Part shown: piece after piece, positions 5,826 through 22,293 of the stretch | Layout of the letters: the number at the start of each line of letters is the position of its first letter | How positions within the stretch are numbered: position 1 is the stretch's first letter | Notes under the pieces: generated by a model | What the model was told of the DNA's origin: nothing | The model's database searches: none | Seen by the model: only the letters and a program-made list of their open reading frames with translations | Translations under genes and position numbers: made by a program | NCBI RefSeq assembly: GCF_022012395.1 | Contig: NZ_JAKLTQ010000001.1 | Location: 1-64,000, forward strand | Reading direction: 5' to 3' | Length of the DNA: 64,000 nucleotides | Origin: Arthrobacter hankyongi | Lineage (GTDB): Bacteria; Actinomycetota; Actinomycetes; Actinomycetales; Micrococcaceae

Positions 5826-7499
5826 ATGACAGGGAACTGCCTTCCCGAACCGGACCCGCCGGCCGAGCCGGGCGGCGGACCTGCTGCGGGCCCGGCACCT
5901 TGGGAGCTGGAGTTCATTCTCCGCTGGGGCGATCCTGGTGCACCGATACCCGAGGACCCGATGGCAGGCTGCCCGGATCCCGGCCGGCGTCCGCAGGACT
6001 GGGAAGACCCGGATGCCTGGGACAGCGAGGCGGACTTCGATCTGGAGGACCTGTCCGACGACGTGTGGGATCCGGACGACAGCATCCCCGCCACGTGTCC
6101 GCTGGAGCAGGTGCATCTGCTGGCCACGGTGCTACCGCACCGGCTCGATTACCGGCAGGCAGCCCGGCAGTTGGAGGAAGCCCGCAAGGCCGACGCCTGG
6201 CTCCAGGCACGCATCGTACGGCTGGCACACCGGCTGGCCCAGACGGCCGTGCAAGGGCTGCCGGCCCCGTGTCCGGGTATGCCGGAGCGGGCCCGGGCCA
6301 ATGCCAGTGAACTGGCCCGGAAGTCCGCAACTGCCGAACTGGCGAGACTGCTGAGCATTCCCGAGGGAACCGCCTGTGTCCGGCTGGAGCAGGCCCGGGA
6401 CCTGTGCACCAGCCTGCCTGCCACTTTGGCCGCACTGGAGTCAGGGGAAATCACCGGCGAGCAGGCCGCAGTGATCGCAGACCAAGCCGCCACAATTCCG
6501 GTTTCGTCCCGCCCGGCCTTTGAAGCGGTCCTGCTGCCGGGCGCAATGAAGCTGGACCGGCCGGCGCTGCGCAAGAAAGCCCGGCGGCAGGCCGAACGGC
6601 TCAACCCGGAGCCGCCCGCCGTCCGCCGCAACCGCGCCGAGGCCGGCCGCCGGGTGGAACTGACCCCGCAATCCGATGGCATGGCCTATATTGGCGCCGT
6701 CCTGCCGGCCGAGACCGCGTACGCCATCTACGACCGGATCACCCGCGCGGCCAAGTCCCTGCAGTGCGCCGAAGAAACCCGCACCCTGGCCCAACTGCGG
6801 CCCGATGTATTCGCGGATCTGCTCATCAACGGTGGCATGGACGCGGGACCGGCCGCCGGTATCCGCGCCGAGGTCATGGTCACTGTCCCCGTCTTCACCC
6901 TGCTGGGCCTGGACGAGGAACCGGCCGAACTGGAAGGCTATGGACCTGTTCCGGCCGACGTCGCCCGCGTCCTGTGCGCGAATGCCCCGTCCTTCCACCG
7001 CGTCCTCACACATCCCGAAACCGGTGTCCGCCTCTCCTGGGGCCGAACCACCTACCGGGTGCCGCAGGACCTGGCCCGCGTCGTGCGCCACCGCCACCCG
7101 GTGTGTACCTTTGCCGGCTGCCGGCGCGGCGCCGGGACCTGCGAACTGGACCATACCGTCGCCTTCGCGGATGGCGGCGAAACCGCCTTGGACAACCTCG
7201 GCCCCGCCTGCAAACATCACCACCGGCTCAAACACATGGCCGGCTGGATGGCGGCCCAGTCACCGGGCGGAAACTTCACCTGGATCTCCCCCGCCGGCTA
7301 CCCGAGCAGGACCGTACCGGATCATCTGGGCGACGGGCCGCCCCACTACCCCGAAGCAGTCCTTAAGCACTTGCCGGCGGAGCATCGTCGGCGCCTGCTC
7401 CGCGCTGCCGAGGAGCTCCGCAATCCGACGGAACCGGCACCGCCCGGGCCGCCGGAGACCGGTGCCCTGCCGGACCCGGACGCGCCCCCGCCCTTCTGA
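5826..7499 (+). CDS. DUF222 / HNH endonuclease domain protein (13E12 type)
   Basis: Protein of 557 aa of the 13E12-repeat family: a DUF222 helical region (about 90-400) and a C-terminal HNH nuclease domain near 415-470. In the HNH part CTFAGC, then ELDHTVAF, then NLGPACKHHHRLKH supply paired cysteines, the DH and the final N...HH expected for a zinc-bound beta-beta-alpha-metal site. The first ~90 residues are acidic and Pro/Gly rich, probably disordered. ATG 5826 has GGTGGA eight bases upstream; an in-frame ATG at 5754 is the alternative. Family members occur in many divergent copies in actinobacterial genomes and are often linked to mobile DNA. Target and role are unknown. No SOS box was seen upstream, although some mycobacterial relatives have one. 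Confidence 0.85.
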   Translation: MTGNCLPEPDPPAEPGGGPAAGPAPWELEFILRWGDPGAPIPEDPMAGCPDPGRRPQDWEDPDAWDSEADFDLEDLSDDVWDPDDSIPATCPLEQVHLLATVLPHRLDYRQAARQLEEARKADAWLQARIVRLAHRLAQTAVQGLPAPCPGMPERARANASELARKSATAELARLLSIPEGTACVRLEQARDLCTSLPATLAALESGEITGEQAAVIADQAATIPVSSRPAFEAVLLPGAMKLDRPALRKKARRQAERLNPEPPAVRRNRAEAGRRVELTPQSDGMAYIGAVLPAETAYAIYDRITRAAKSLQCAEETRTLAQLRPDVFADLLINGGMDAGPAAGIRAEVMVTVPVFTLLGLDEEPAELEGYGPVPADVARVLCANAPSFHRVLTHPETGVRLSWGRTTYRVPQDLARVVRHRHPVCTFAGCRRGAGTCELDHTVAFADGGETALDNLGPACKHHHRLKHMAGWMAAQSPGGNFTWISPAGYPSRTVPDHLGDGPPHYPEAVLKHLPAEHRRRLLRAAEELRNPTEPAPPGPPETGALPDPDAPPPF

Positions 7500-7601
7500 C
7501 ACGGTGCCCCTCTGACTGACACGCTGCCCCTCTGACACGGTCGATCTGCCTGACCCGGTTGATCCACGTGTCCTAGATGGTCCATCTGGCCCGGTGGCAG
7601 T

Positions 7602-8414
7602 TCAGCTGAATGTTGCCCGGGTGATCCGTGCGCGGAAGAACTCGCCTTCCTCCTGCCTGTCGGACCCCCACCACCAGCCGGCCCGGTAGACGCCTGGAAG
7701 CCGGAGTCCGGAGAAGACTGCTTCTTCCTCCACGGCCACCCCGAAGGAGTAGCGTCGGTAGCCGGTCCCCTCCGGATTCCCCCACCGCTGCATCAGTACC
7801 TCGCGCAGTTCTCCGCCGGGGCCGACGCGCAGCTGACAGTCCTCGGGCCCGTCCGCAGGCAGCCAGGTCATCACTGCAGTATCAGCATCAGAATCCGGGC
7901 CCGTGCCCGCTGACCAGCTGGCGGACAGGCAGGCGGTGGGCACGAAGATTGCTTCCCCGGCCAGCCGCCCGGCAGCGCTGCGGGTGGTGTCCTGTCCCCG
8001 TGCGGACATGGCAGGCAGCACGCCCAACAGGCGCCACCGCATCTGCCCGGCGGCAGCCGCCCCTGTTACCGGGTCTGATGCCCTATAGCGGTCGAAGCCC
8101 GACACCGGCAGGCCCCGGACCCGGGTCCGGGCCGCCCAGACGAAGCCACGGCCGGGCGCGATTATCTGGCGCGCGGTAAAGGGAAACCATTTGTCCCCAA
8201 GCCGGATCTGCCCGAGCATCTGCAGTTCTGCGGTGCCCCATAGCGGCGTGCCCGCATCAATGGCGTGGGTGAGCCACCGCCGGGCCGGCTCGGGAAGGGC
8301 GGACAGCGCCGCAGGATCGAATGCTTCAGGCCGGGCCGAAGCCGTGCCGGGGCGGCGCCCCAGCAGCGCCCAGTCGGCTGCCGCCGCGCGCGGGATACGG
8401 TGTCCTCGCTTCAT
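7602..8414 (-). CDS. DUF6544-like protein
   Basis: Protein of 270 aa without a known biochemical role. It resembles the DUF6544 family: LPEPARRWLTHAI near the start, then PLWGTAELQMLGQIRLGD, FTARQIIAPGRGFVW and a C-terminal FGVAVEEEAVFSGLRLP segment followed by an aromatic GWWWGSD. No signal peptide or membrane segment is evident. ATG 8414 is chosen because GGGAGG stands five bases ahead of it; the longer frame to 8486 would run through the strong hairpin after argH. It converges with the DUF222-HNH gene and follows argH on the same strand, but the hairpin suggests separate transcription. Confidence 0.7.
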   Translation of the reverse strand: MKRGHRIPRAAAADWALLGRRPGTASARPEAFDPAALSALPEPARRWLTHAIDAGTPLWGTAELQMLGQIRLGDKWFPFTARQIIAPGRGFVWAARTRVRGLPVSGFDRYRASDPVTGAAAAGQMRWRLLGVLPAMSARGQDTTRSAAGRLAGEAIFVPTACLSASWSAGTGPDSDADTAVMTWLPADGPEDCQLRVGPGGELREVLMQRWGNPEGTGYRRYSFGVAVEEEAVFSGLRLPGVYRAGWWWGSDRQEEGEFFRARITRATFS

Positions 8415-8472
8415 CCGTGCCTCCCGAGGCTCAGGCCGGGCGGTCATGACCACCGCCACCATACCGGAACGC

Positions 8473-8508
8473 CTCGGGCCGGCCATCTTTCCAGATGACC
8501 GGCCCGAG
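8473..8508 (-). terminator. Hairpin terminator after argH
   Basis: A 10-base-pair GC stem (8473-8482 with 8499-8508) is continued by a further 5 pairs (8484-8488 with 8493-8497) across one mismatch, closing on a 4-base loop. It begins 14 bases past the argH stop and marks the end of the arginine cluster. No T-run follows. Confidence 0.65.
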
Positions 8509-8521
8509 CCTGTTGAATCAA

Positions 8522-9955
<1,434 letters not shown>

Positions 9956-11164
9956 TTACTTCGCCACCGCCACTCGCTCGTCGCGCTCGGAGGCCACCTT
10001 GGCGGCCAGACCGAAGATGTCGATGAAGCCGCGGGCGCTGGACTGGTCGAAGGCGTCGCCGGTGTCGTAGGTGGCGAGGTTGAAGTCATACAGCGAGCTG
10101 TCCGAACGCCGGCCGGTGACGGTGGCGCGGCCGCCGTGCAGCTCCATCCGGATGTCGCCGGAAACGTACTGCTGGGTGTCCTCGATGAAGGTGTCCAGCG
10201 ATCGCTTGAGCGGGGAGAACCACTGGCCGTCGTAGACCAGCTCGGTCCAGCGCTGGCCGACGGTCTTCTTGAAGCGGGCCTGCTCCCGCTCGACCGTGAC
10301 ATTTTCAAGTTCCTTGTGCGCGGCGATCAGCGCCATGGCACCGGGTGCCTCGTAGATTTCGCGCGACTTGATGCCGACCAGGCGGTCCTCGACGATGTCG
10401 ATCCGGCCGATGCCCTGGGCGCCGGCGCGGTGGTTGAGCTGCTGGATGGCCTGCAGCGGGGTCACCGGGTTTCCGTCCAGGGCCACCGGAATACCTTCTT
10501 TGAAGGTAATGACGACCTCGTCGGCCACCGGCGGGAACTCCGGGGAGGCGGTGTAGTCGTAGACGTCCTTGGTGGGGCCGTTCCAGATGTCCTCGAGGAA
10601 GCCGGTTTCCACCGCGCGTCCCCAGACATTCTGGTCGATGGAGAAAGGGTTCTTCTTGGTGGTGACGATCGGCAGGTTTTTGTCCTCCGCGTAGGCGATG
10701 GCCTTGTCACGGGTGAGGGCCAGGTCGCGGACCGGTGCGATGCACTTCAGGTCCGGGCCCAGAGTCTGGATGCCGACTTCGAAGCGGACCTGGTCGTTGC
10801 CCTTGCCGGTGCAGCCGTGGGACACGGTGGTGGCGCCGAACTGGCGGGCGGCGGCGACCAGGTGCTTGACGATCACCGGCCGGGACAGCGCGGAGACCAG
10901 CGGGTAGGCGTCCATGTACAGGGCGTTGGCCTTCAGTGCCGGCATGCAGTACTCGGCGGCGAACTCGTCGCGGGCGTCGGCAACGTAGGCTTCCACGGCT
11001 CCGCAGTCCAGCGCGCGCTGGCGGATGGTCTCCAGGGATTCACCGCCCTGTCCGACGTCGACGGCGACGGCGATGACCTCGGCGCCGGTGGCCTCGGCGA
11101 TCCAGCCGATCGCCACGGAGGTGTCGAGGCCTCCGGAGTAGGCCAGAACAATGCGGTCAGTCAC
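9956..11164 (-). CDS. argG: Argininosuccinate synthase
   Basis: Joins citrulline and aspartate with ATP to argininosuccinate (402 aa). The N-type ATP pyrophosphatase P-loop AYSGGLDTS is at residues 8-16, and the citrulline/aspartate-binding region with [14 protein letters not shown] lies near 117-130. The start is GTG with AGGAG nine bases upstream. It abuts argH downstream and follows argR after about 40 bases, so it probably belongs to the same transcript as argCJBDFR or has a weak own promoter. Confidence 0.98.
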
Positions 11165-11206
11165 GTTAGGTGCTCCTAGCTAGTGATGTGGGGTGGGTTC
11201 AAGGGT

Positions 11207-11722
11207 TCAGCTGTTGCGCGAGGGATCGTCGGCGAACTGCAGGAATCGGGCCGCGACCTCGGTGCCGCCCTGCGGGTCCCGGGTCACCAGCAGCACCGTG
11301 TCATCGCCGGCAATGGTGCCCAGCACCGAGGGCATGACCGAGTGGTCGATGGCCAAGGCCAGGAAGTTCGCGGCCCCCGGCGGGGTCCGCAGCACCACCA
11401 GGTTGCCGGAGGCCTCGGCTGTGACCAGCAGGTCCGCGCACAGCTTGGCCAGCCGGGCATCGAGAATTTCCTGCGTGAGCCCGCTCTGCGGCGAGCGTTC
11501 CCCACCCTCGGCCGGGATCGCGTAGACCAGGGCGCCGTCCCCACTGCGGACCCGGACGGCCCCCAGCTCCACCAGGTCGCGGGATAGCGTGGCCTGGGTC
11601 ACCTGCACGCCGTCGGCCGCGAGCAGGGCAGCCAGCTCCGCCTGGGAACGCACGGACTGCCCGGTCAGGATCGCGGTGATCCGGGCCTGGCGGGCCGTCT
11701 TGGTGGTGGGCATGCTGGTCAT
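11207..11722 (-). CDS. argR: Arginine repressor
   Basis: Hexameric transcription factor (171 aa) that senses arginine and represses the arginine genes. The N-terminal winged helix-turn-helix is seen in the segment around QVTQATLSRDLVELGAVRV (about 40-58), and the C-terminal trimerisation and arginine-binding domain includes IAGDDTVLLVTRD with the two acidic residues that contact arginine. ATG 11722 has GGGAAGA upstream. Located inside the arginine cluster after argF, as in other actinobacteria, so it would be subject to its own control through the site before argC. Confidence 0.97.
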   Translation of the reverse strand: MTSMPTTKTARQARITAILTGQSVRSQAELAALLAADGVQVTQATLSRDLVELGAVRVRSGDGALVYAIPAEGGERSPQSGLTQEILDARLAKLCADLLVTAEASGNLVVLRTPPGAANFLALAIDHSVMPSVLGTIAGDDTVLLVTRDPQGGTEVAARFLQFADDPSRNS

Positions 11723-11757
11723 TGAAAGTCTTCCCGACAGTCTTCTCGCCGCAGCCT

Positions 11758-12732
11758 TCAGGATACCGACCGCAACGGGGCCAGGCCGGACTTGTCCATC
11801 AGCCAGGCCATCAGCGCCTTCTGCGCATGCAGCCGGTTCTCCGCCTCGTCCCAGACCACCGACTGCGGACCGTCGATCACCTCGGCGGAGATCTCATAGC
11901 CCCGGTAGGCGGGCAGGCAGTGCAGCACGATGGCGTCCGGCGCCGCCTGCTCCATGGCCGCGGCATCCACCGAGTAGTTGCGGAACAGCTGCTGGCGCTG
12001 GGCCTTTTCCTCTTCCTGGCCCATGGACACCCAGGTGTCCGTGGCAACGACGTCGGCACCGGCCAGGGCCGCCGCGGCGTCCGTGGTGACCAGCACCGAG
12101 CCGCCGGTTTCGGCGGCGCGTTCCTTGGCGGCGGCGACGACGGCGTCCGAGGGCAGGTAGCCTTCCGGCCCGGCAATCCTGATATTCATCCCCGCGGTGG
12201 CACAGGCGAGCAGGTACGAGTTGGCCATATTGTTGGCCGCATCGCCCAGGTAGGCCAGCGTCAGGCCGTTGAGCCCGCCCTTGTGTTCCTTGATTGTCAG
12301 CAGGTCCGCCAGCAGCTGGCACGGATGGTAGTCGTCCGAAAGCGAGTTGATCACCGGGACGCGGGAGATGGCGGCCATTTCCTCCAGGCCCGAGTGGGCG
12401 TAGGTCCGCCAGACCACGGTGGCGACCATGCGTTCGAGCACGCGGATGGTATCGGCTACCGATTCCTTGTGCCCGAGCTGGGATTCGCCGGGATTCATGA
12501 TCAGCGGCACCCCGCCCAGGTCCGCGATCCCGGCGGCGAAGGAGACCCGCGTGCGGGTGGAGGTCTTGTCGAAGATGACGGCGACCGTCCGGCGTCCGGC
12601 CCCGTCCCCGGCATAAGGCTGGTACAGGTACGGGGCCTTCTTCATGTCCGCGGCGAGGTCGAGGACTTCGGCCTGCTCGGCGGGACTGAGGTCGGTATCG
12701 ACCAGGAAATGGCGGATTCCGTTCTGGGTCAC
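11758..12732 (-). CDS. argF: Ornithine carbamoyltransferase
   Basis: Transfers the carbamoyl group to ornithine, giving citrulline (324 aa). Carbamoyl phosphate-binding STRTR is at 58-62, the second-substrate motif HPCQ sits in DDYHPCQLLAD, and the catalytic HCLP motif is near residue 280. The start is GTG at 12732 with AAAGGTGG just before it; a much longer open frame through argD is only an out-of-frame shadow. The GTG overlaps the argD stop codon as GTGA, so the two are translationally coupled. Confidence 0.97.
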   Translation of the reverse strand: MTQNGIRHFLVDTDLSPAEQAEVLDLAADMKKAPYLYQPYAGDGAGRRTVAVIFDKTSTRTRVSFAAGIADLGGVPLIMNPGESQLGHKESVADTIRVLERMVATVVWRTYAHSGLEEMAAISRVPVINSLSDDYHPCQLLADLLTIKEHKGGLNGLTLAYLGDAANNMANSYLLACATAGMNIRIAGPEGYLPSDAVVAAAKERAAETGGSVLVTTDAAAALAGADVVATDTWVSMGQEEEKAQRQQLFRNYSVDAAAMEQAAPDAIVLHCLPAYRGYEISAEVIDGPQSVVWDEAENRLHAQKALMAWLMDKSGLAPLRSVS

Positions 12733-14075
12733 TTTTCCACCTTTGCTTTGGATGCTTCGGAAGATGCGGAAGATTCGGCAGCCTGCCCGGCCACCGCGAT
12801 AATGCCCGGCAGCGCTTCGAGGAAGCTGGAGGCCTGACCGCGGGTCAGGATCAGCGGCGGAGCCAGCCGCAGCGTGTGCGGGCCGGGCGCGTTGATAATG
12901 AAACCGGCGTCGAGCCCGGCCTGGACTGCGGCCGGGGCGATGCCGCCCGGCATACCTGCGCCCAGGTCCTCGGCCAGGTCGAAGCCGATCAGCAGGCCCT
13001 CGCCCCGCACCTCGGCCACTCCCGCCGTCGAGGCCAGGCGCTCGCGCAGCCAGGCACCGACGTCGGACGCATTCTGCATCAGCCCGCGGGCCTCGATCGA
13101 GTGCAGCGTCGCCAGCGCGGCCGCGGTGGCCACCGGGTTGCCGCCAAACGTGGTCCCGTGCTGCCCGGCGCCGAGCAGTCCGGAAACTTCCTCGCCGAAG
13201 GTCACCAGCGCGCCGATCGGGAAGCCGCCGCCTAGGCCCTTGGCCAGGGTGATCGCGTCCGGAACGATCTGCTCGCCGCCGGCCACGGCGCCCTGGAAGG
13301 CGAACCAGTTTCCGGTACGGCCGACGCCGGACTGCACTTCGTCCAGGATGAGCAGGGCACCGGCCTCGCGGGTCACCTCGCGGGCGGCCTTCAGGTACCC
13401 CGGCGGCAGCGGCCGGACGCCGACCTCGCCCTGGATCGGTTCCAGCACGACGGCGGCAACAGTCCCGTCCACGGCAGCACGCAGTGCGTCCACGTCGCCG
13501 AACGGGATGTGCTCGACGCCGCCCGGCATTGGTTCGAACGGCTCCCGGTAGGCCTTCTTGGCGGTCAATGCGAGCGCCCCCATGGTGCGTCCGTGGAAGG
13601 CCCCCTCCAGGGCGATGATGCGCGTGCGCGGCTGCTCCGGCGTGCCGGCATTGCGCCGGGCCAGCTTGAAGGCCGCCTCGTTGGCCTCGGTACCGGAGTT
13701 GGCGAAGAACACCTTGGATCCGGCCGGCGCCTGGGCCAGTTCCAACAGCTTTTCCGCCAGGGCGATCTGGGTAGGACTGGTGAAGAAATTCGAGACATGG
13801 CCAAGCGTGGCCAGCTGGCTGGAGATGATGCTGGTCAGGAACGGATCCGCGTGGCCCAGTGCATTCACCGCGATCCCGCCGAGCAGGTCCAAGTACTCCT
13901 TGCCGTCGGCGTCCCACACGGTGCAGCCGCTGCCGCGCACCAGCACCCGCTGCGGGGTGCCGAACACGCCCATCAGCGAATGGTTGTAGCGGGCCAGCAG
14001 CTCCTGGTTGTGCAGGCCCTCCAGGTGGGCCAGCTGGGCCGCCGTGCCGATGCCGGCCTGCCGTACGTCGCTCAT
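12729..14075 (-). CDS. argD: Acetylornithine aminotransferase
   Basis: Pyridoxal phosphate enzyme of aminotransferase class III (448 aa) that makes N-acetylornithine from the semialdehyde; relatives also act in lysine synthesis. The cofactor lysine is K279 in [12 protein letters not shown]; the cofactor-binding [13 protein letters not shown] lies near 123-135 and the [14 protein letters not shown] block near 242-255. The C-terminus carries a short Ser/Ala/Lys-rich tail after residue ~430 that is not part of the fold. Overlaps argB upstream (ATGA) and argF downstream (GTGA) by four bases each. Confidence 0.97.
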
Positions 14076-14983
14076 GCGTCATCTCCGTCCGGGACGATCT
14101 GGGTACCAATCCCTGCCGTCGTGAAAATCTCCAACAGAATCGAATGGGCCATGCGACCGTCCACGACCGCAGCGCGTTCCACTCCCCCGTCCACGGCCTT
14201 CAGGCAGGCCTCCATCTTCGGAATCATGCCGGATTCCAGCCGGGGCAGCAGCCCGCGCAGGTCCGAGGCAGTCAGCGAGGAAATCAGCGAGGACCGGTCC
14301 GGCCAGTTGGCGTAGAGTCCTTCGACGTCGGTGAGGACCACCAGGCGCGAGGCATGCAGCGCCTCGGCCACCGCTGCGGCGGCCGTGTCGGCATTGACGT
14401 TGAGTACCTGGCTGGTGGGTTCGCCGCTGTGGCCGATTTCCGGGGCGACCGTGGAGATCACCGGGATCCGTCCGGCCTCGAGCAGGTCCAGGATGGCAGA
14501 GGGGTTCACCCCCACCACCTCGCCGACCAGGCCCAGGTCCACTTCCTCGCCGTCCACCACGGTGCCGGTGCGCACGGCCTGCAGCAGGCCGCCGTCTTCC
14601 CCGGACATACCGACGGCATAGGGGCCGTGCGAGTTGATCAGGCCCACCAGTTCGCGCCCGACCTGGCCGGTGAGCACCATCCGGACTACGTCCATGGCCT
14701 CGGGGGTGGTGACGCGCAGGCCGCCCTTGAATTCGGACTCGATGCCCACTTTGGCGAGCATGGCATTGATCTGCGGACCGCCCCCGTGCACCACCACAGG
14801 CCGGATGCCCACATGGTGGAGGAAGACAATGTCTTCGGCGAAGGCCCGGCGCAGCTCGTCGTTGACCATGGCGTTGCCGCCGTACTTGACGACCATGGTG
14901 GTCCCGGCGAAGCGTTTGATCCAGGGCAGCGCCTCGATCAGCGTCGCGGCCTTGTCCTGGGCCACCAGCATTGAAGTGTTCAT
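14072..14983 (-). CDS. argB: Acetylglutamate kinase
   Basis: Phosphorylates N-acetylglutamate (303 aa), usually the arginine-inhibited step. Amino acid kinase fold with [10 protein letters not shown] near residue 30, [14 protein letters not shown] near 60-73 and the C-terminal [10 protein letters not shown] region. ATG 14983 is chosen, with AGGATCC upstream and 10 bases after the argJ stop; an in-frame GTG-type extension to 15025 would overlap argJ and is unlikely. The stop codon overlaps the argD start as ATGA. Confidence 0.97.
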
Positions 14984-14993
14984 GGGGATCCTG

Positions 14994-16145
14994 TCAGCTG
15001 GAGTACGCGGAGTTTTCTTCCACATAGTCGTGGGTCAGGTCATTGGTCCAGATGGTGGCGGTCTCACCGCCGGCGTTCAGGTCGATCACCACTTCCACCT
15101 CGCGGCCGGACAGGTCCACCAGGCTGCGCGGCTCGCCGACGCCACCGTTGCGGCACACCTGGACGCCGTTCATCGACACGTTCAGCTGCCCCGGTTCGAA
15201 GGCTGCATCCGTGGTGCCGACGGCGGAGAGCACGCGGCCCCAGTTCGGGTCGTTGCCGAAGATCGCGGTCTTGAACAGGTTGGACCGGGCGACGGCCCGG
15301 CTGACGGTTTCGGCATCCGACTCGGTGGCGGCGTTCACCGTGGTGATGGCGATGTCGTGGCTGGCACCCTCGGCATCGGTGATCAGCTGCCGGGCCAGGT
15401 CCGCACAGACCTGGGTTAGCCCGGCGGTGAATTCCGCCAGGCCCGGAGCCGTCCCGGAGGCGGCCGAGGACATCAGCACCACCGTGTCGTTGGTGGACAT
15501 GCAGCCGTCGGAATCGGTGCGGTCGAAGGTCACCCGGGTGGCCTCCCGCAGCGCCGAATCGAGGGCCGCCGGTTCCACCTCGGCATCCGTGGTGATGACG
15601 ACCAGCATCGTGGCCAGGCCCGGAGCCAGCATGCCGGCACCCTTGGCCATGCCGCCGATGCTGTAGCCGGGGCCGGAGAATCCTGCCTGCTTGGAGACGG
15701 TGTCGGTGGTCATGATCGCGCTGGCCGCGGCCGCACCGCCGTCGCCGGCCAGCGCCGCGGCCGCGGCCTCGACACCGGGCAGGATCTTGTCCATCGGCAG
15801 CTGCTCGCCGATCAGGCCGGTGGAGCAGACCACCACGTCCCCGGCGGAGATACCCAGCACTTCGGCGGTCTTCTCCGCGGTGGCATGGGTGTTCTGGAAG
15901 CCTTCCGCACCGGTGCACGCGTTGGCCCCGCCGGAATTGAGGATGACGGCGTCCACCCGGGTGTCGCTGACCACCTGGCGGGACCACAGCACCGGGGCGG
16001 CAGCCACCCGGTTGGACGTGAAGACCGCCGCGGCCGCCTTGGCCGGCCCGTCGTTGACGACCAGCGCCATATCCGGTTTGCCGGAAGCCTTCAGGCCGGC
16101 GGTGATGCCCGCGGCACGGAAGCCTTTGGGGGTTGTGACGCTCAC
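14994..16145 (-). CDS. argJ: Bifunctional ornithine acetyltransferase / N-acetylglutamate synthase
   Basis: Moves the acetyl group from acetylornithine to glutamate and so recycles it; bifunctional members also use acetyl-CoA (383 aa). The protein cuts itself into two chains: the [14 protein letters not shown] stretch places the nucleophile at Thr179 of the ATML site. No separate early acetylglutamate synthase gene lies in the cluster, consistent with but not proof of bifunctionality. Start is GTG, overlapping the argC stop as GTGA. Confidence 0.96.
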
Positions 16146-17185
16146 GGTGCTACTCCCTGGTGGGTCAGGCCCGCGGTCTCCTCGAGGCCCAGGGCAATGT
16201 TCATGGACTGGATGGCGCCGCCGGCAGTGCCTTTGGCCAGGTTGTCGATGGCGCAGCTGACGATGACCCGGCCGCTGTGCGCATCGAAAGCCAGCTGCAT
16301 CACCGCATGGTTCGAGCCGAGGACGGCCTTGGTGTGCGGCCAGCGTCCCTCAGGCAGCAGGTGCACGAACGGCTCGTCCGCGTAGGCGGCGGCCCAGGCT
16401 TCGCGCAGCTCATGGGCAAGCGCGGTGGCGCTGGCGCCGGGCCGGGCCTTCGCGGTGGCGGTGGTGAGGATGCCGCGGCTCATCGGCGCCAGCGTGGGCG
16501 TGAAGGAAACCGTCACCTGCCCGCCGGCCGCCGCGCTGAGCCCCTGCTCGATCTCCGGAGTGTGCCGGTGGCCGCCGCCGACGCCGTAGGGGTTCATGCC
16601 GCCCATGACTTCCGAGCCGAGCAGGTTGACCTTGGCGGACTTGCCGGCGCCGGAGGTGCCGGAGGCGGAGACGATCACCACGTCGTCGTGTTCGAGCAGC
16701 CCGGCGGCGAAGCCCGGGGCCAGGGCCAGCAGCGAGCTGGTCGGATAGCAGCCCGGCACGGCGATGCGCCGGGCATTGCGCAGCCGCTCGCGGTGGCCGG
16801 GCAGCTCGGGCAGCCCGTACGGCCACGTGCCGGCGTGGGCCGACCCGTAGAACTTCTCCCAGGCCAGCGGGTCCTCGAGGCGGTGGTCCGCCCCGGCGTC
16901 GATCACCAAGGTGTCCTCGGGCAGCTGGGCGGCAATTTCGGCGCTCGCGCCGTGCGGCAGCGCCAGGAAGACGACATCATGGCCCGCAAGGTTCTCCACC
17001 GTCGTGTCTGACAGTTCCCGGCCGGCCAGCGAATGCAGGTGGGGCTGGAGTTCGCCCAGCAGCGACCCGGCATTGCTGTGGGCCGTGATGGCCCCGATGG
17101 TCACGTCCGGATGGCTGGCCAGCAGGCGCAGGACTTCGCCCCCGGCGTAGCCGCTGGCACCGGAAACGGCAACAGAAAAACTCAT
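16142..17185 (-). CDS. argC: N-acetyl-gamma-glutamyl-phosphate reductase
   Basis: NADPH-dependent third step of arginine synthesis (347 aa). N-terminal nucleotide-binding GASGYAGGE is at 9-17 and the catalytic cysteine is Cys146 in PGCYPTS. ATG 17185 is preferred over the upstream ATG at 17197: TATGGT ends seven bases before it and there is no ribosome site, as for a leaderless message. It is first in the argCJBDFR run, and the AT-rich palindromic stretch at 17207-17233 just upstream is the likely ArgR target. Confidence 0.96.
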
Positions 17186-17233: not shown

Positions 17234-17341
17234 CATCCCCTTCGGCGGGCACCCTGTGGCGCTCCAGCCGCCCGAGGGCCGCCCTAGGATGGTGTGCAGA
17301 TCCCCACCAGCCTAGTAGCCAGACCGAGGAAAGGACCCTCT

Positions 17342-18349
17342 GTGACCGAGAATCCCGGAAACTCGCCCCGAACCGCCAAGGCCACCGCAAAAGCCATTGT
17401 GGCAGCAGCCCCCGGCGGGCCAGAAGTGCTGCAGCTGCAGGACGTGGAGATCCCCTCCCCCGGCCCGGGCCAGCTGCTGGTCAAGGTGGCCGCGGCCGGG
17501 GTGAATTTCATCGAAACCTACGAGCGCAGCGGGACCTACAAGGTGTCCTTCCCCTTCACTCCGGGCAGCGAGGCCGCCGGCACCGTGGCCGCCGTGGGCG
17601 AAGGCGTCACCGGAGTCGCAGCCGGAGACCGGGTGGCATTCTGCGAGGGTGCCGGGACCTATGGGCAGTACGCCCTGGTCCGGGCCGAGGCAGCACTGCC
17701 GGTACCCGACGGCGTCGGCTTCGAGGCCGCCGCCGCGCTCCCGCTGCAGGGCATGACGGCCCACTACCTGGTCAATTCCAGCTTCAAGGCGGGCCCGGAG
17801 CACACGGTGCTCACCCACGCCGGCGCCGGCGGCGTCGGACTGCTGCTGACCCAGCTGCTCAAGGCCAAGGGCGCCCGGGTGATCACCACGGTCTCCTCGG
17901 ACGAGAAGGAGGCCCTGGCCCGGTCCGCAGGCGCCGACGAGGTGCTGCGCTACGAGGGCTTCCCCGAAAAGGTCCGGGGACTGACCAATGGCACCGGTGT
18001 GGACGTGGTGTACGACGGCGTCGGCAAGGACACGTTCGACGGCTCCCTGGCGTCGCTGCGCAAGCGCGGCATGTTGGTGCTCTTCGGCGGCGCCTCGGGC
18101 CAGGTCCCGCCGTTCGACCTGCAGCGGCTGAACGCCGGCGGCTCACTGTTCGTCACCCGGCCCAAACTGGCGGACCACCTGCTGACCCCGGAGGAACGGC
18201 AGTGGCGCTCGCGCGAAATTTTCGACGCGGTGCTGGCCGGTCGGCTGGACGTCCGGATCGGCGGCACTTATCCACTGGCCGAGGCAGCCCGGGCGCACGA
18301 GGACCTGCAGGCCCGGCGCACTACCGGCAAGGTACTGCTCGTGCCGTAA
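17342..18349 (+). CDS. Quinone oxidoreductase, zinc-free MDR family
   Basis: NADPH-dependent quinone reductase-like enzyme of the medium-chain dehydrogenase/reductase superfamily (335 aa). An N-terminal GroES-like domain includes GVNFIETYERSGTYK and PFTPGSEAAG; the Rossmann part has HAGAGGVGLLLTQLLKAKGA and the C-terminus ARAHEDLQARRTTGKVLL, typical of Qor proteins. No zinc-ligand set of the alcohol dehydrogenases is present. GTG 17342 follows GAGGAAAGGA; an upstream ATG-type extension is less likely. Divergent from argC; it ends about 60 bases before the synthetase gene. Confidence 0.92.
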   Translation: MTENPGNSPRTAKATAKAIVAAAPGGPEVLQLQDVEIPSPGPGQLLVKVAAAGVNFIETYERSGTYKVSFPFTPGSEAAGTVAAVGEGVTGVAAGDRVAFCEGAGTYGQYALVRAEAALPVPDGVGFEAAAALPLQGMTAHYLVNSSFKAGPEHTVLTHAGAGGVGLLLTQLLKAKGARVITTVSSDEKEALARSAGADEVLRYEGFPEKVRGLTNGTGVDVVYDGVGKDTFDGSLASLRKRGMLVLFGGASGQVPPFDLQRLNAGGSLFVTRPKLADHLLTPEERQWRSREIFDAVLAGRLDVRIGGTYPLAEAARAHEDLQARRTTGKVLLVP

Positions 18350-18411: not shown

Positions 18412-21400
18412 GTGACTCTGCTTTTACCCCAGTTGCCAGGTTCGGCCCGCGCGCCGCACTCGCGCACGCTGCCTGAAATCATCGCCGCGAGCGCGCAGGC
18501 CTACCCGGAGGCGACGGCGCTGGATGACGGCCGGCAGGCGCTCACCTACGCCGAACTGCTCGAGGAGGTGCGGGCCAAAGGCCGCCAACTGCAGCAGGCC
18601 GGCTTCGGCGCCGGAGACAAGATCGGCATCCGCATTCCCTCCGGAACGCGCGAGCTGTACATCAGCATCCTGGCCACGCTGGAGATCGGTGCCGCCTACG
18701 TGCCGGTGGATGCCGACGACCCGGACGAACGTGCCCGGCTGGTCTTCGGCGAGGCCCAGGTGGCCGGCGTCCTCGGCGCCGGCGGGGAAATCACCGTGGC
18801 CCCGGTGCCCGGTACGGCTCCCGACCGGCGCACGGCGCTGCCGTCCGACGACGCGTGGGTAATCTTCACCTCGGGCTCTACCGGCACCCCGAAGGGCGTT
18901 GCCGTCACCCACCGCTCCGCGGCGGCCTTCGTGGACGCCGAAGCGGAACTGTTCCTGCAGCAGGAGCCGCTGGGTCCGCAGGACCGCGTGCTCGCCGGAC
19001 TCTCGGTTGCCTTCGACGCCTCCTGCGAGGAAATGTGGCTGGCCTGGCGGCACGGCGCCTGCCTGGTGCCCGCGCCGCGGTCGCTGGTGCGCAGCGGCAT
19101 GGACCTGGGCCCATGGCTGGTGGACAAGAGCATCACCGCCGTCTCCACCGTGCCTACCCTGGCCGCGCTGTGGCCGGCCGAGGCGTTGGAGAACGTCCGG
19201 CTGCTGATCTTCGGCGGCGAAGCCTGCCCACCCGAACTGGCCGCGCGGCTGGCCGTCCCTTCCCGCGAGGTCTGGAACACCTACGGGCCCACCGAGGCTA
19301 CCGTGGTCGCCTGTGCCGCACTGATGGACGGCACCGGCCCGGTGCGGATCGGCCTGCCGCTGGACGGCTGGGACCTGGCCGTGGTGGACGCCGACGGCGT
19401 ACCGGTGGCCGAAGGCGGCACCGGTGAGCTGATCATCGGCGGCGTCGGGCTGGCCCGCTACCTGGACCCGGCGAAAGACGCCGAAAAGTACGCACCAATG
19501 CCGACACTGGGCTGGGAACGCGCCTACCGCAGCGGAGACCTGGTCGTCTACGAACCCGCCGGCCTGATCTTCGCCGGGCGCGCGGACGAGCAGGTCAAAC
19601 TCGGCGGACGGCGGATCGAACTGGGCGAGGTGGACGCCGCCCTGCAGGCGCTGCCGGACGTGCATGGGGCCGCGGCCGCCGTGAAGACGACGGCAGCCGG
19701 GAACCAGGTGCTGGTCGGCTACCTTGCCACCGGCGCCGAGTACGACCTGACGGCCGCCAGGGCCCGGCTCACGGAACAGTTGCCGGCACCGCTGGTGCCG
19801 CTGCTGGCTATCGTGGACACGCTGCCGACGAAGACCAGCGGCAAGGTGGACCGCGAGGCGCTGCCCTGGCCCCTGCCCGGCACCGAACCGGATGCGGGCA
19901 GCAAGCTTGAACTGGACCCCGAAACCCAGTGGATCGTGGACCAGTGGGCCGCGGTGCTGGGCACGTCGCCGGGCTCGCTGGACGCAGACTTCTTCACCCA
20001 CGGCGGCGGTTCCCTGGCGGCCGCCCAACTCGTGTCGGCGCTGCGCGTGCGCTATCCGACCATCGCCGTCGCCGAAATCTACGCCCACCCGCGTGTAGGA
20101 GCACTGGTCGAGGCGGTAAGGCAGTCGGAGCCGGACGGCATTCCGGCCGCCCCGCAGGAACGCGAAGTCCGCCGGACCCAGCGCAAGACCCAGATCTTCC
20201 AGACGCTCATGGGCATTCCGCTGAACGTGCTGTCGGGCATGCGCTGGCTGACCTACCTCATGATCCTCAACAACACGCTGGTCCAGCTGGGTGTCTTCAC
20301 CGGCGCACCGGTCATCTCCTGGTGGTGGGTACTGGCCAGCTGGGTGGTGTTCGTCAGCCCGCCCGGGCGGATGGCCATCGCCGTCGCCGCCGCCCGGCTG
20401 CTGCTGCGCGGCGTCGGCCCGGGCAACTACCCGCGCTCGGGCAAGGTGCACCTGCGGCTGTGGCTGGCCGAGCAGATCGCAGACATGGCCGGTGCCGTCT
20501 CCCTCGCCAGCGCTCCCTTCGTGCCCTACTATGCCCGGGCGCTGGGGGCGCGGATCGGCCGGAATGTGGACCTGCATTCGGTCCCGCCGGTGACCGGCCT
20601 GCTCACGCTGGGCAGCGGCGCCTCGATCGAACCGGAGGTGGACCTGGCCGGCTGGTGGATCGACGGGGACCGGGTGCATATCGGAACCATCGAGGTGGGT
20701 CCCGGCGCCACGGTGGGATCGCGCAGCACGCTCCTGCCCGGTGCGAGCATCGGCGCCCACGCCAGCATTGCACCGGGCTCCGCGGTCACCGGCCCGGTCA
20801 AGGCCGGGCTGCATTTCTCCGGCTCCCCGGCCCAGCGCGCCGGAAAGGCCCGGACTGGCTGGCCGGAACCGCCGGGCAATTCCAGCCCGCTCTGGAGCGT
20901 GTTCTACCCCGTGGCCTCCGGCCTGCTGGCCCTGATCCCCTACCTTTCGGCGGTGGCTGCCATCGCCGTGGCCGTCCTGGTGCTGCCGGACACCGCCAGC
21001 GGGGGCCTCTCCGCCACCTTCTGGCCGCTGCTGGCGGCCGTCCCGCTGGCCGCCGCGGTCTGGTACCTGGCCAACCTGCTGCTGATCGCCGTCGTCGTCC
21101 GGTTGCTCGGGATCGGGCTGGTTCCCGGCTACCACCGGGTCCGCAGCCGGATCGGCTGGCAGGTCTGGGCCACCGAACGGGTCCTGGACCTGGCCCGGGA
21201 CCAGCTCTTCGCCACCTACGCCAGCCTGTTCACCCCGGTCTGGCTGCGCCTGCTCGGTGCCAAGGTGGGCAAGAACGTGGAAGCCTCCACGGTGCTGCTG
21301 GTGCCCAAAATGACCACCGTGGGGGAAGGCGCGTTCCTAGCCGATGACACCATGGTGGCCTCCTACGAACTGGGCGGCGGCTGGATGAAGATCGCCCCGG

Positions 21401-22293
21401 CCAAGGTGGGCAAACGCTCCTTCCTGGGCAATTCCGGCATGACTGCCGCCGGACGGAAGGTACCGCGGAATTCGCTGGTGGCGGTGCTGTCCGCCACCCC
21501 GGCGAAGGCCAAGGCCGGCTCGTCCTGGCTGGGCAGCCCGCCGGTGCGCCTGCGCCGGAGCGGCATCGAGTCGGACCAATCGTTGACCTACGCCCCGCCG
21601 GCCAGGCTCAAGATTGCGCGCGCCTTGTGGGAACTGTGCCGCTTCGTCCCGGTCGCCGTCACCACCGCGCTGGCGCTCTGCGTGCTGGCCCTGCTCGACT
21701 GGATCGCGCTCTCGTACGGCTACCTGCCGGCCGCCGTGGCCTCGGGGGTGGTCATGATGGCTGCCGGCGCCGCGGCCGCCGGCAGCTCGGTAGCCGCGAA
21801 GTGGCTGCTGGTCGGCCGGATCAAGGCAGGCGAGCATCCGCTCTGGAGTTCCTTCATCTGGCGCAACGAAGTGGTGGACACCTTCGTGGAAATGGTCAGC
21901 GCCCCGTGGTTCGGCCGGCTGGCTTCCGGCACCCCGGCCCTGGTCTGGTGGCTGCGCGGACTGGGCGCCAAGATCGGCCACGGCGTCTGGTGCGAGAGCT
22001 ACTGGCTGCCCGAGGCGGACCTGGTCACCTTGGGCAGCGGCTCCACGGTCAACCGCGGCTGCGTGGTCCAAACCCATCTCTTCCATGACCGGATCATGAG
22101 CATTGATACCGTGGAACTGGCCGCCGGAGCGACGCTGGGCCAGAACTCGGTGATCCTCCCGGCTGCGTCCATCGACGACGGCGCCACGGTGGGCCCTGCT
22201 TCCCTGGTCATGCGCGGGGAAACAGTGCCCGCCGCCAGCTACTGGATGGGCAATCCCGTACAGCCATGGACCGCACCGAACCAGCAGGACTGA
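18412..22293 (+). CDS. Pls/PosA-like membrane nonribosomal peptide synthetase
   Basis: Protein of 1293 aa, close to the size of the epsilon-poly-lysine synthetase Pls. Order of parts: adenylation domain (about 15-480) with FTSGSTGTPKG at 152-162, NTYGPTEAT at 289-297 and the A10 lysine K478; carrier domain (about 500-570) with the phosphopantetheine serine S534 in GGGSL; then hydrophobic membrane segments near 605-665, 830-900 and 1075-1130, alternating with three hexapeptide-repeat, acyltransferase-like modules near 710-800, 945-1020 and 1185-1275. There is no usual condensation or thioesterase domain. This is the layout of the Pls/PosA family, which joins amino acids into short homopolymers. 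Aligned to the GrsA positions the pocket reads D202 A203 E206 S245 I266 G268 T290 V298 V299; an acidic residue at the third place favours a basic amino acid. The start is GTG 18412 with only a weak GCAGG upstream. Coupled to the M1 peptidase gene by TGATG. Product unknown. Confidence 0.9.
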   Translation: MTLLLPQLPGSARAPHSRTLPEIIAASAQAYPEATALDDGRQALTYAELLEEVRAKGRQLQQAGFGAGDKIGIRIPSGTRELYISILATLEIGAAYVPVDADDPDERARLVFGEAQVAGVLGAGGEITVAPVPGTAPDRRTALPSDDAWVIFTSGSTGTPKGVAVTHRSAAAFVDAEAELFLQQEPLGPQDRVLAGLSVAFDASCEEMWLAWRHGACLVPAPRSLVRSGMDLGPWLVDKSITAVSTVPTLAALWPAEALENVRLLIFGGEACPPELAARLAVPSREVWNTYGPTEATVVACAALMDGTGPVRIGLPLDGWDLAVVDADGVPVAEGGTGELIIGGVGLARYLDPAKDAEKYAPMPTLGWERAYRSGDLVVYEPAGLIFAGRADEQVKLGGRRIELGEVDAALQALPDVHGAAAAVKTTAAGNQVLVGYLATGAEYDLTAARARLTEQLPAPLVPLLAIVDTLPTKTSGKVDREALPWPLPGTEPDAGSKLELDPETQWIVDQWAAVLGTSPGSLDADFFTHGGGSLAAAQLVSALRVRYPTIAVAEIYAHPRVGALVEAVRQSEPDGIPAAPQEREVRRTQRKTQIFQTLMGIPLNVLSGMRWLTYLMILNNTLVQLGVFTGAPVISWWWVLASWVVFVSPPGRMAIAVAAARLLLRGVGPGNYPRSGKVHLRLWLAEQIADMAGAVSLASAPFVPYYARALGARIGRNVDLHSVPPVTGLLTLGSGASIEPEVDLAGWWIDGDRVHIGTIEVGPGATVGSRSTLLPGASIGAHASIAPGSAVTGPVKAGLHFSGSPAQRAGKARTGWPEPPGNSSPLWSVFYPVASGLLALIPYLSAVAAIAVAVLVLPDTASGGLSATFWPLLAAVPLAAAVWYLANLLLIAVVVRLLGIGLVPGYHRVRSRIGWQVWATERVLDLARDQLFATYASLFTPVWLRLLGAKVGKNVEASTVLLVPKMTTVGEGAFLADDTMVASYELGGGWMKIAPAKVGKRSFLGNSGMTAAGRKVPRNSLVAVLSATPAKAKAGSSWLGSPPVRLRRSGIESDQSLTYAPPARLKIARALWELCRFVPVAVTTALALCVLALLDWIALSYGYLPAAVASGVVMMAAGAAAAGSSVAAKWLLVGRIKAGEHPLWSSFIWRNEVVDTFVEMVSAPWFGRLASGTPALVWWLRGLGAKIGHGVWCESYWLPEADLVTLGSGSTVNRGCVVQTHLFHDRIMSIDTVELAAGATLGQNSVILPAASIDDGATVGPASLVMRGETVPAASYWMGNPVQPWTAPNQQD

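Follow-up and report, generated by a model that had tools for sequence, protein, structure and literature searches.

Probable epsilon-poly-L-lysine synthetase gene with an overlapping PldII-like M1 peptidase gene in Arthrobacter hankyongi

The first 64,000 nucleotides of contig NZ_JAKLTQ010000001.1 of Arthrobacter hankyongi (assembly GCF_022012395.1; hereafter the window) contain a gene pair that very probably encodes an epsilon-poly-L-lysine (epsilon-PL) synthetase, Pls, and an overlapping PldII-like M1 hydrolase (Table 1). The original prediction had described a synthetase of the Pls/PosA type for which no specific product could be named, and had ranked it as the best candidate for an undescribed natural product. 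Its account of the synthetase was sound, but the overlapping downstream peptidase gene was overlooked. The adenylation (A) pocket has the same ten residues as that of structure 7wew, the second of these residues is Ala, and the M1 gene overlaps the synthetase gene as in described pls-peptidase operons. Therefore, a probable product, epsilon-PL, can be named from the pocket and the partner gene, and the claim of an undescribed product is not upheld. An "unknown product" is replaced by a named, testable one, and the combination of pocket and partner gene offers a reading guide for such genes.

Table 1 Features of the synthetase locus in the window (positions are those of the window).
Feature	Position	Strand	Evidence
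pls, probable epsilon-poly-L-lysine synthetase, 1293 aa, GTG start	18412..22293	+	Stop-free frame, Pfam/NCBIfam, 7wew alignment, tree
Adenylation domain, residues 11-490	18442..19881	+	PF00501; 7wew alignment; pocket code
Carrier (thiolation) domain, residues 506-569; attachment serine S534 in GGGS	19927..20118	+	PF00550
C-terminal membrane polymerisation region (predicted), residues 596-1283, units C1, C2, C3	20197..22260	+	TIGR02353, model, Foldseek, conservation
M1-family peptidase, PldII-like, 467 aa	22293..23696	+	PF01433 and PF17900 (frame scanned from 22266)
qor-like zinc-binding-dehydrogenase-fold reductase, upstream of pls	17294..18349	+	Pfam/NCBIfam; synteny: neighbour in part of host family

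The synthetase frame is free of stops and starts with GTG, as first described; an alternative longer GTG start at 18202 was dropped because it falls within the upstream gene. At E ≤0.001, only three Pfam families were found in the 1293-residue protein, namely AMP-binding (residues 26-349), PP-binding (506-569) and Hexapep, and no condensation (C) or thioesterase (TE) family was among the matches. The adenylation and carrier domains and the lack of C and TE domains thus agree with the original prediction. NCBIfam model TIGR02353 matches residues 596-1283, and its score of 701.5 bits lies well above the curated cut-off of 423.1. Therefore, a chance match is excluded and membership of the Pls/PosA family, also predicted earlier, is confirmed. 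The column of S534 in the carrier domain is Ser in 131 of 131 aligned rows. The protein has the layout of Pls: an A domain, one carrier and an NRPS_term_dom region, with neither a C nor a TE domain.

Ten residues line the pocket of the A domain (D202, A203, E206, S245, I266, G268, T290, V298, V299 and K478; code DAESIGTVVK), at positions that we assigned from presumed motifs of GrsA. The acidic residue E206 is present as had been claimed. The best match of residues 11-490 in the PDB was 7wew (664.6 bits), which is named epsilon-poly-L-lysine synthase and which we take to be the Streptomyces albulus enzyme. Identity amounts to 325 of the 475 aligned positions (68%), and the ten-residue code is the same in both. 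At position 2 of the code, lysine enzymes carry Ala, PosA carries Met, and the synthetases for poly-diaminopropionate and poly-diaminobutyrate (PDAP/PDAB) carry Phe (PMC10522769); the published codes are DMEHNGTVSK for PosA and DGESISVVNK, with Gly at position 2, for poly-beta-lysine synthetase (PMC10522769). By this rule, Ala203 makes the focal code fit lysine, so that the basic substrate proposed at the outset is upheld as an expectation.

Code DAESIGTVVK occurred in 115 of the 123 rows with an A domain, DAESIGTVIK in four and DFECLSVVTK in another four (stops inside extracted frames were written as X in this table). The 115 include no fewer than five repeats (L046, which is the window, and L047-L050, which duplicate L032, L042, L034 and L035), without which at most 110 remain. 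The code was also found in all of the 30 best-scoring loci retrieved with the whole focal protein, not via the pocket. The DFECLSVVTK rows, from host-genus loci L029, L030, L038 and L045, constitute a third synthetase class with Phe at position 2, which has been tied to diaminobutyrate or diaminopropionate polymers (PMC10522769).

The ATG of the peptidase gene overlaps the stop codon of pls (TGATG), and its product carries the zinc motif HEXXH-18-E expected of a PldII-like enzyme. An M1 gene follows pls in 69 of 80 named loci. Among 149 host-family genomes, the synthetase (E ≤1e-100) was found in 80 and the peptidase (E ≤2e-50) in 75; both were present in 75, the synthetase only in five, the peptidase only in none and neither in 69 (Fisher's exact test: p = 5e-37, a statistic that ignores kinship). 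This tight co-occurrence supports the peptidase as part of the system. The count used peptidase rows down to 1.9e-50 and omitted six (1.2e-44 to 6.7e-42: G000, G005, G006, G009, G017 and G120). At a looser peptidase cut-off of 1e-40, 77 genomes matched, with both genes in 75, the synthetase only in five, a peptidase-like match only in two and neither in 67. Adjacency varied with synthetase identity: an M1 gene lay within 500 bases downstream on the same strand for 70 of 71 synthetase matches at ≥56% identity, the single exception being a 375-residue fragment with a stop, and for none of 18 at 47-54% or of ten at ≤34%; four of the 18 have an M1 gene 3.4-4.0 kb downstream. Gene overlap and co-occurrence together suggest that the two genes form an operon. 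The peptidase that follows pls in L076, a locus with 93% A-domain identity to 7wew, shares 42% identity with the focal one.

For the C-terminal region, an AlphaFold2 model of residues 583-1293 (59 relatives supplied; mean predicted local distance difference test 91.8, predicted template modelling score 0.91) consists of three consecutive units, each with helices followed by a beta-helix. The predicted fold agrees with the three tandem acyltransferase-like domains of Pls, published as C1-C3 (PMC8506220, PMC4668381) and cited as essential for peptide bond formation (PMC4668381), and with the three hexapeptide modules of the original prediction. In a Foldseek search of the PDB, left-handed beta-helix acetyltransferases led among the best 50 matches listed (best E 1.8e-5), with template modelling (TM) scores up to about 0.5 by target length and ≤0.16 by query length, the latter being low because a single unit was matched each time. 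Weak phmmer matches of residues 580-1293 were to gamma-carbonic anhydrases and hexapeptide acetyltransferases (best E 1.2e-4). Pls has six transmembrane segments; a plain hydropathy scan flagged only 830-908 and 1074-1123 and did not resolve the segment number, and long helices are present in all three units of the model. In an alignment of 59 loci and the window (60 rows, A-less and DFECLSVVTK relatives included; L103, which has a stop within the extracted frame, was left out of the 60 loci chosen), 13 polar or aromatic positions were invariant in 60 of 60 rows, among them the third-unit residues Q1220, H1222 and D1226. No histidine other than H1222 is invariant, and the invariance suggests that these three residues may be catalytic.

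By analogy with characterised relatives, the A domain would adenylate L-lysine and load it onto the phosphopantetheine arm at S534. Lysyl units would then be joined via their epsilon-amines by the membrane C1-C2-C3 beta-helix region, in repeated rounds that involve neither a condensation nor a thioesterase domain. The product would be a short cationic isopeptide that is exported from the cell, and the M1 peptidase would trim or degrade this polymer, probably for self-protection.

The gene pair closely resembles systems already described. S. albulus Pls shares the A-T-C1-C2-C3 layout, the ten-residue pocket and an overlapping or adjacent peptidase gene, but its chromosomal neighbourhood differs. 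Pls of Corynebacterium variabile, likened here by description only, also belongs to a non-filamentous actinobacterium and stands in an operon with a peptidase gene (PMC8117764); expression in S. coelicolor showed its product to be epsilon-PL, and the same paper names homologues of Pls in coryneform genera, Arthrobacter among them (PMC8117764). PldII, again likened by description, has been described as an aminopeptidase; its gene adjoins pls and is translationally coupled to it (PMC9223678). Given the architecture and context in PMC8117764 and the coupling of pldII in PMC9223678, the focal pair appears to be a further member of the described system. A. baumannii (Acinetobacter) PosA, a delta-poly-L-ornithine synthetase, has the family layout and conserves the pocket Asp and Glu, but differs in its code, with Met at position 2, and in its ornithine substrate (PMC10522769). 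A predicted epsilon-PL cluster has been noted in Leifsonia (PMC10628120). The literature search found no paper showing epsilon-PL production in Arthrobacter among the passages available, and the passages of PMC12857086, PMC11078813 and PMC12025171 do not mention an Arthrobacter Pls. The search likewise found no paper for codes DAESIGTVVK or DIWQSTADDK, nor for TIGR02353.

Several observations weigh against an epsilon-PL system. In cultures of C. variabile itself, epsilon-PL could not be detected (PMC8117764); therefore, such loci can be silent. Selection of the 80 named loci relied on the 7wew domain, and pocket residues form part of two of the search peptides, which biases this list towards the lysine code. 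Over its whole length, the focal protein is only 51-54% identical to those Streptomyces rows that lie nearest 7wew, no more than to the own-genome paralogue on contig C23 (54%). Eleven of the 80 named loci show no M1 gene; in three of these the synthetase frame is cut by the contig end (L078, L117 and L128), and in the other eight (L081, L085, L086, L088, L101, L121, L122 and L141) no M1 match was found in the DNA examined, which for L121 comprised only 619 bases downstream. Five host-family genomes (G004, G056, G068, G089 and G108) have a synthetase of 31-50% identity and no peptidase, and two (G006 and G120) have no synthetase match and, at E 1e-40, match longer M1 proteins weakly and in part.

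Several polymers are known from the Pls/PosA family (PMC10522769), and four host-genus rows carry Phe at position 2 as in PDAP/PDAB synthetases (PMC10522769), so the focal enzyme might make a cationic homopolymer other than epsilon-PL, such as poly-ornithine, poly-diaminobutyrate or poly-beta-lysine. We consider this quite improbable: position 2 is Ala rather than Met, Phe or Gly, the full code is that of 7wew, and the distant synthetase matches (≤34% identity) have no adjacent M1 gene. Poly-ornithine, PDAB/PDAP and poly-beta-lysine were dismissed as products by comparison with the codes of PMC10522769. The M1 peptidase, in turn, might be a general aminopeptidase that happens to lie beside pls, given that M1 peptidases are common and that NCBIfam returned only matches below the curated cut-offs, aminopeptidase N first. 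Such an unrelated neighbour is hardly credible, however, with a start that overlaps the pls stop, an arrangement repeated across most named loci, and a peptidase confined at E ≤2e-50 to genomes with the synthetase (75 of 75). It was dismissed on the co-occurrence in 149 genomes.

An epsilon-PL synthetase could also serve its producer in a manner other than antibiosis, and the co-occurrence raises the question of what role the polymer has in these bacteria. In a 96-row FastTree phylogeny (root placed on the DFECLSVVTK rows, local supports only, 19 unnamed loci included; L078, L117 and L128, cut by contig ends, and L106, with a broken frame, left out), the focal protein groups with five host-genus rows (support 99), within 19 host-family rows (100) and inside a 73-row clade (95) in which all 73 have an M1 neighbour. 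Outside this clade, ten Streptomyces rows, including L076, and four from Kitasatospora form a group of 14 (99), and three other Streptomyces rows (L100, L111 and L112) fall inside it. Judged by eye, the tree largely tracks taxonomy. The gene order argC-qor-pls-M1-pheT, which places the pair between arg and pheST genes, was found in Arthrobacter celericrescens (L147) as well as in five of five further host-genus loci that were examined; the order on a contig of Micrococcus (L109) is argC-qor-pls-M1, Arthrobacter sp. C2 (L124) has qor and argC about 7.7 kb away, and none of the neighbour genes was found in the DNA examined of three named host-family loci (L099, L110 and L143). Therefore, conservation of the chromosomal location holds within the genus and is only partial across the family. 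Place and tree could suggest an old, mostly vertical trait of Actinomycetota, in which the polycation would be produced and turned over to meet envelope or storage needs of the producing cell, and antibiosis would be a later use. We regard this as unlikely, though less so than another polymer or an unrelated peptidase. No close copy was found in three of eight host-genus genomes (no synthetase match in G006 or G008, distant matches only in G004); therefore, the synthetase is not essential.

The genome of A. hankyongi encodes four TIGR02353 proteins above the cut-off, the focal one and three more on contigs C23, C29 and C3, two of which are stranger than the focal protein. The C23 protein (L028, C23:204000-223900, positions 7291-13342, + strand) is, besides the focal one, the genome's other synthetase that has an A domain; its code is DAESIGTVIK. 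It is followed by a dapA gene, suggesting a dedicated lysine supply, and then by a gene with an HGSNAT-type acetyltransferase domain. The C29 and C3 proteins have no A domain and three carriers, with GADS in each carrier. The C29 copy (L026, C29:6000-25986, positions 8918-12004, + strand) is 75% identical to the C3 copy, and no cluster genes of the SbnA, A-T (adenylation-thiolation), TauD, SbnB or LuxE type were found near it, nor near L036 and L040 in other genomes.

The C3 copy belongs to a run of genes (L027, C3:73000-92900, positions 7095-17157, + strand) for SbnA, the A-less Pls-like protein, an A-T protein, a TauD dioxygenase, SbnB and a LuxE-like acyl-protein synthetase. The A-T protein has code DIWQSTADDK, and its first ~195 residues have no Pfam match. 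A limited literature search, covering passages of papers, found no description of an A-less cluster of this type. The run, in which SbnA and SbnB are encoded by diaminopropionate genes, may represent a diaminopropionate pathway in which the A-T protein loads the Pls-like polymerase in trans, and we consider this cluster a better lead than the focal pls. Its gene order is repeated in L033, L041 and L043, and in L044, a short contig, with no SbnA and a cut LuxE. When 296 genomes of the class were searched (E ≤1e-250), ten matched, of which eight belong to a single genus in a different family. In four genomes from that family (L174-L177), a shorter protein of A-less size is followed by an A-T protein, TauD, SbnB and SbnA, with no LuxE.

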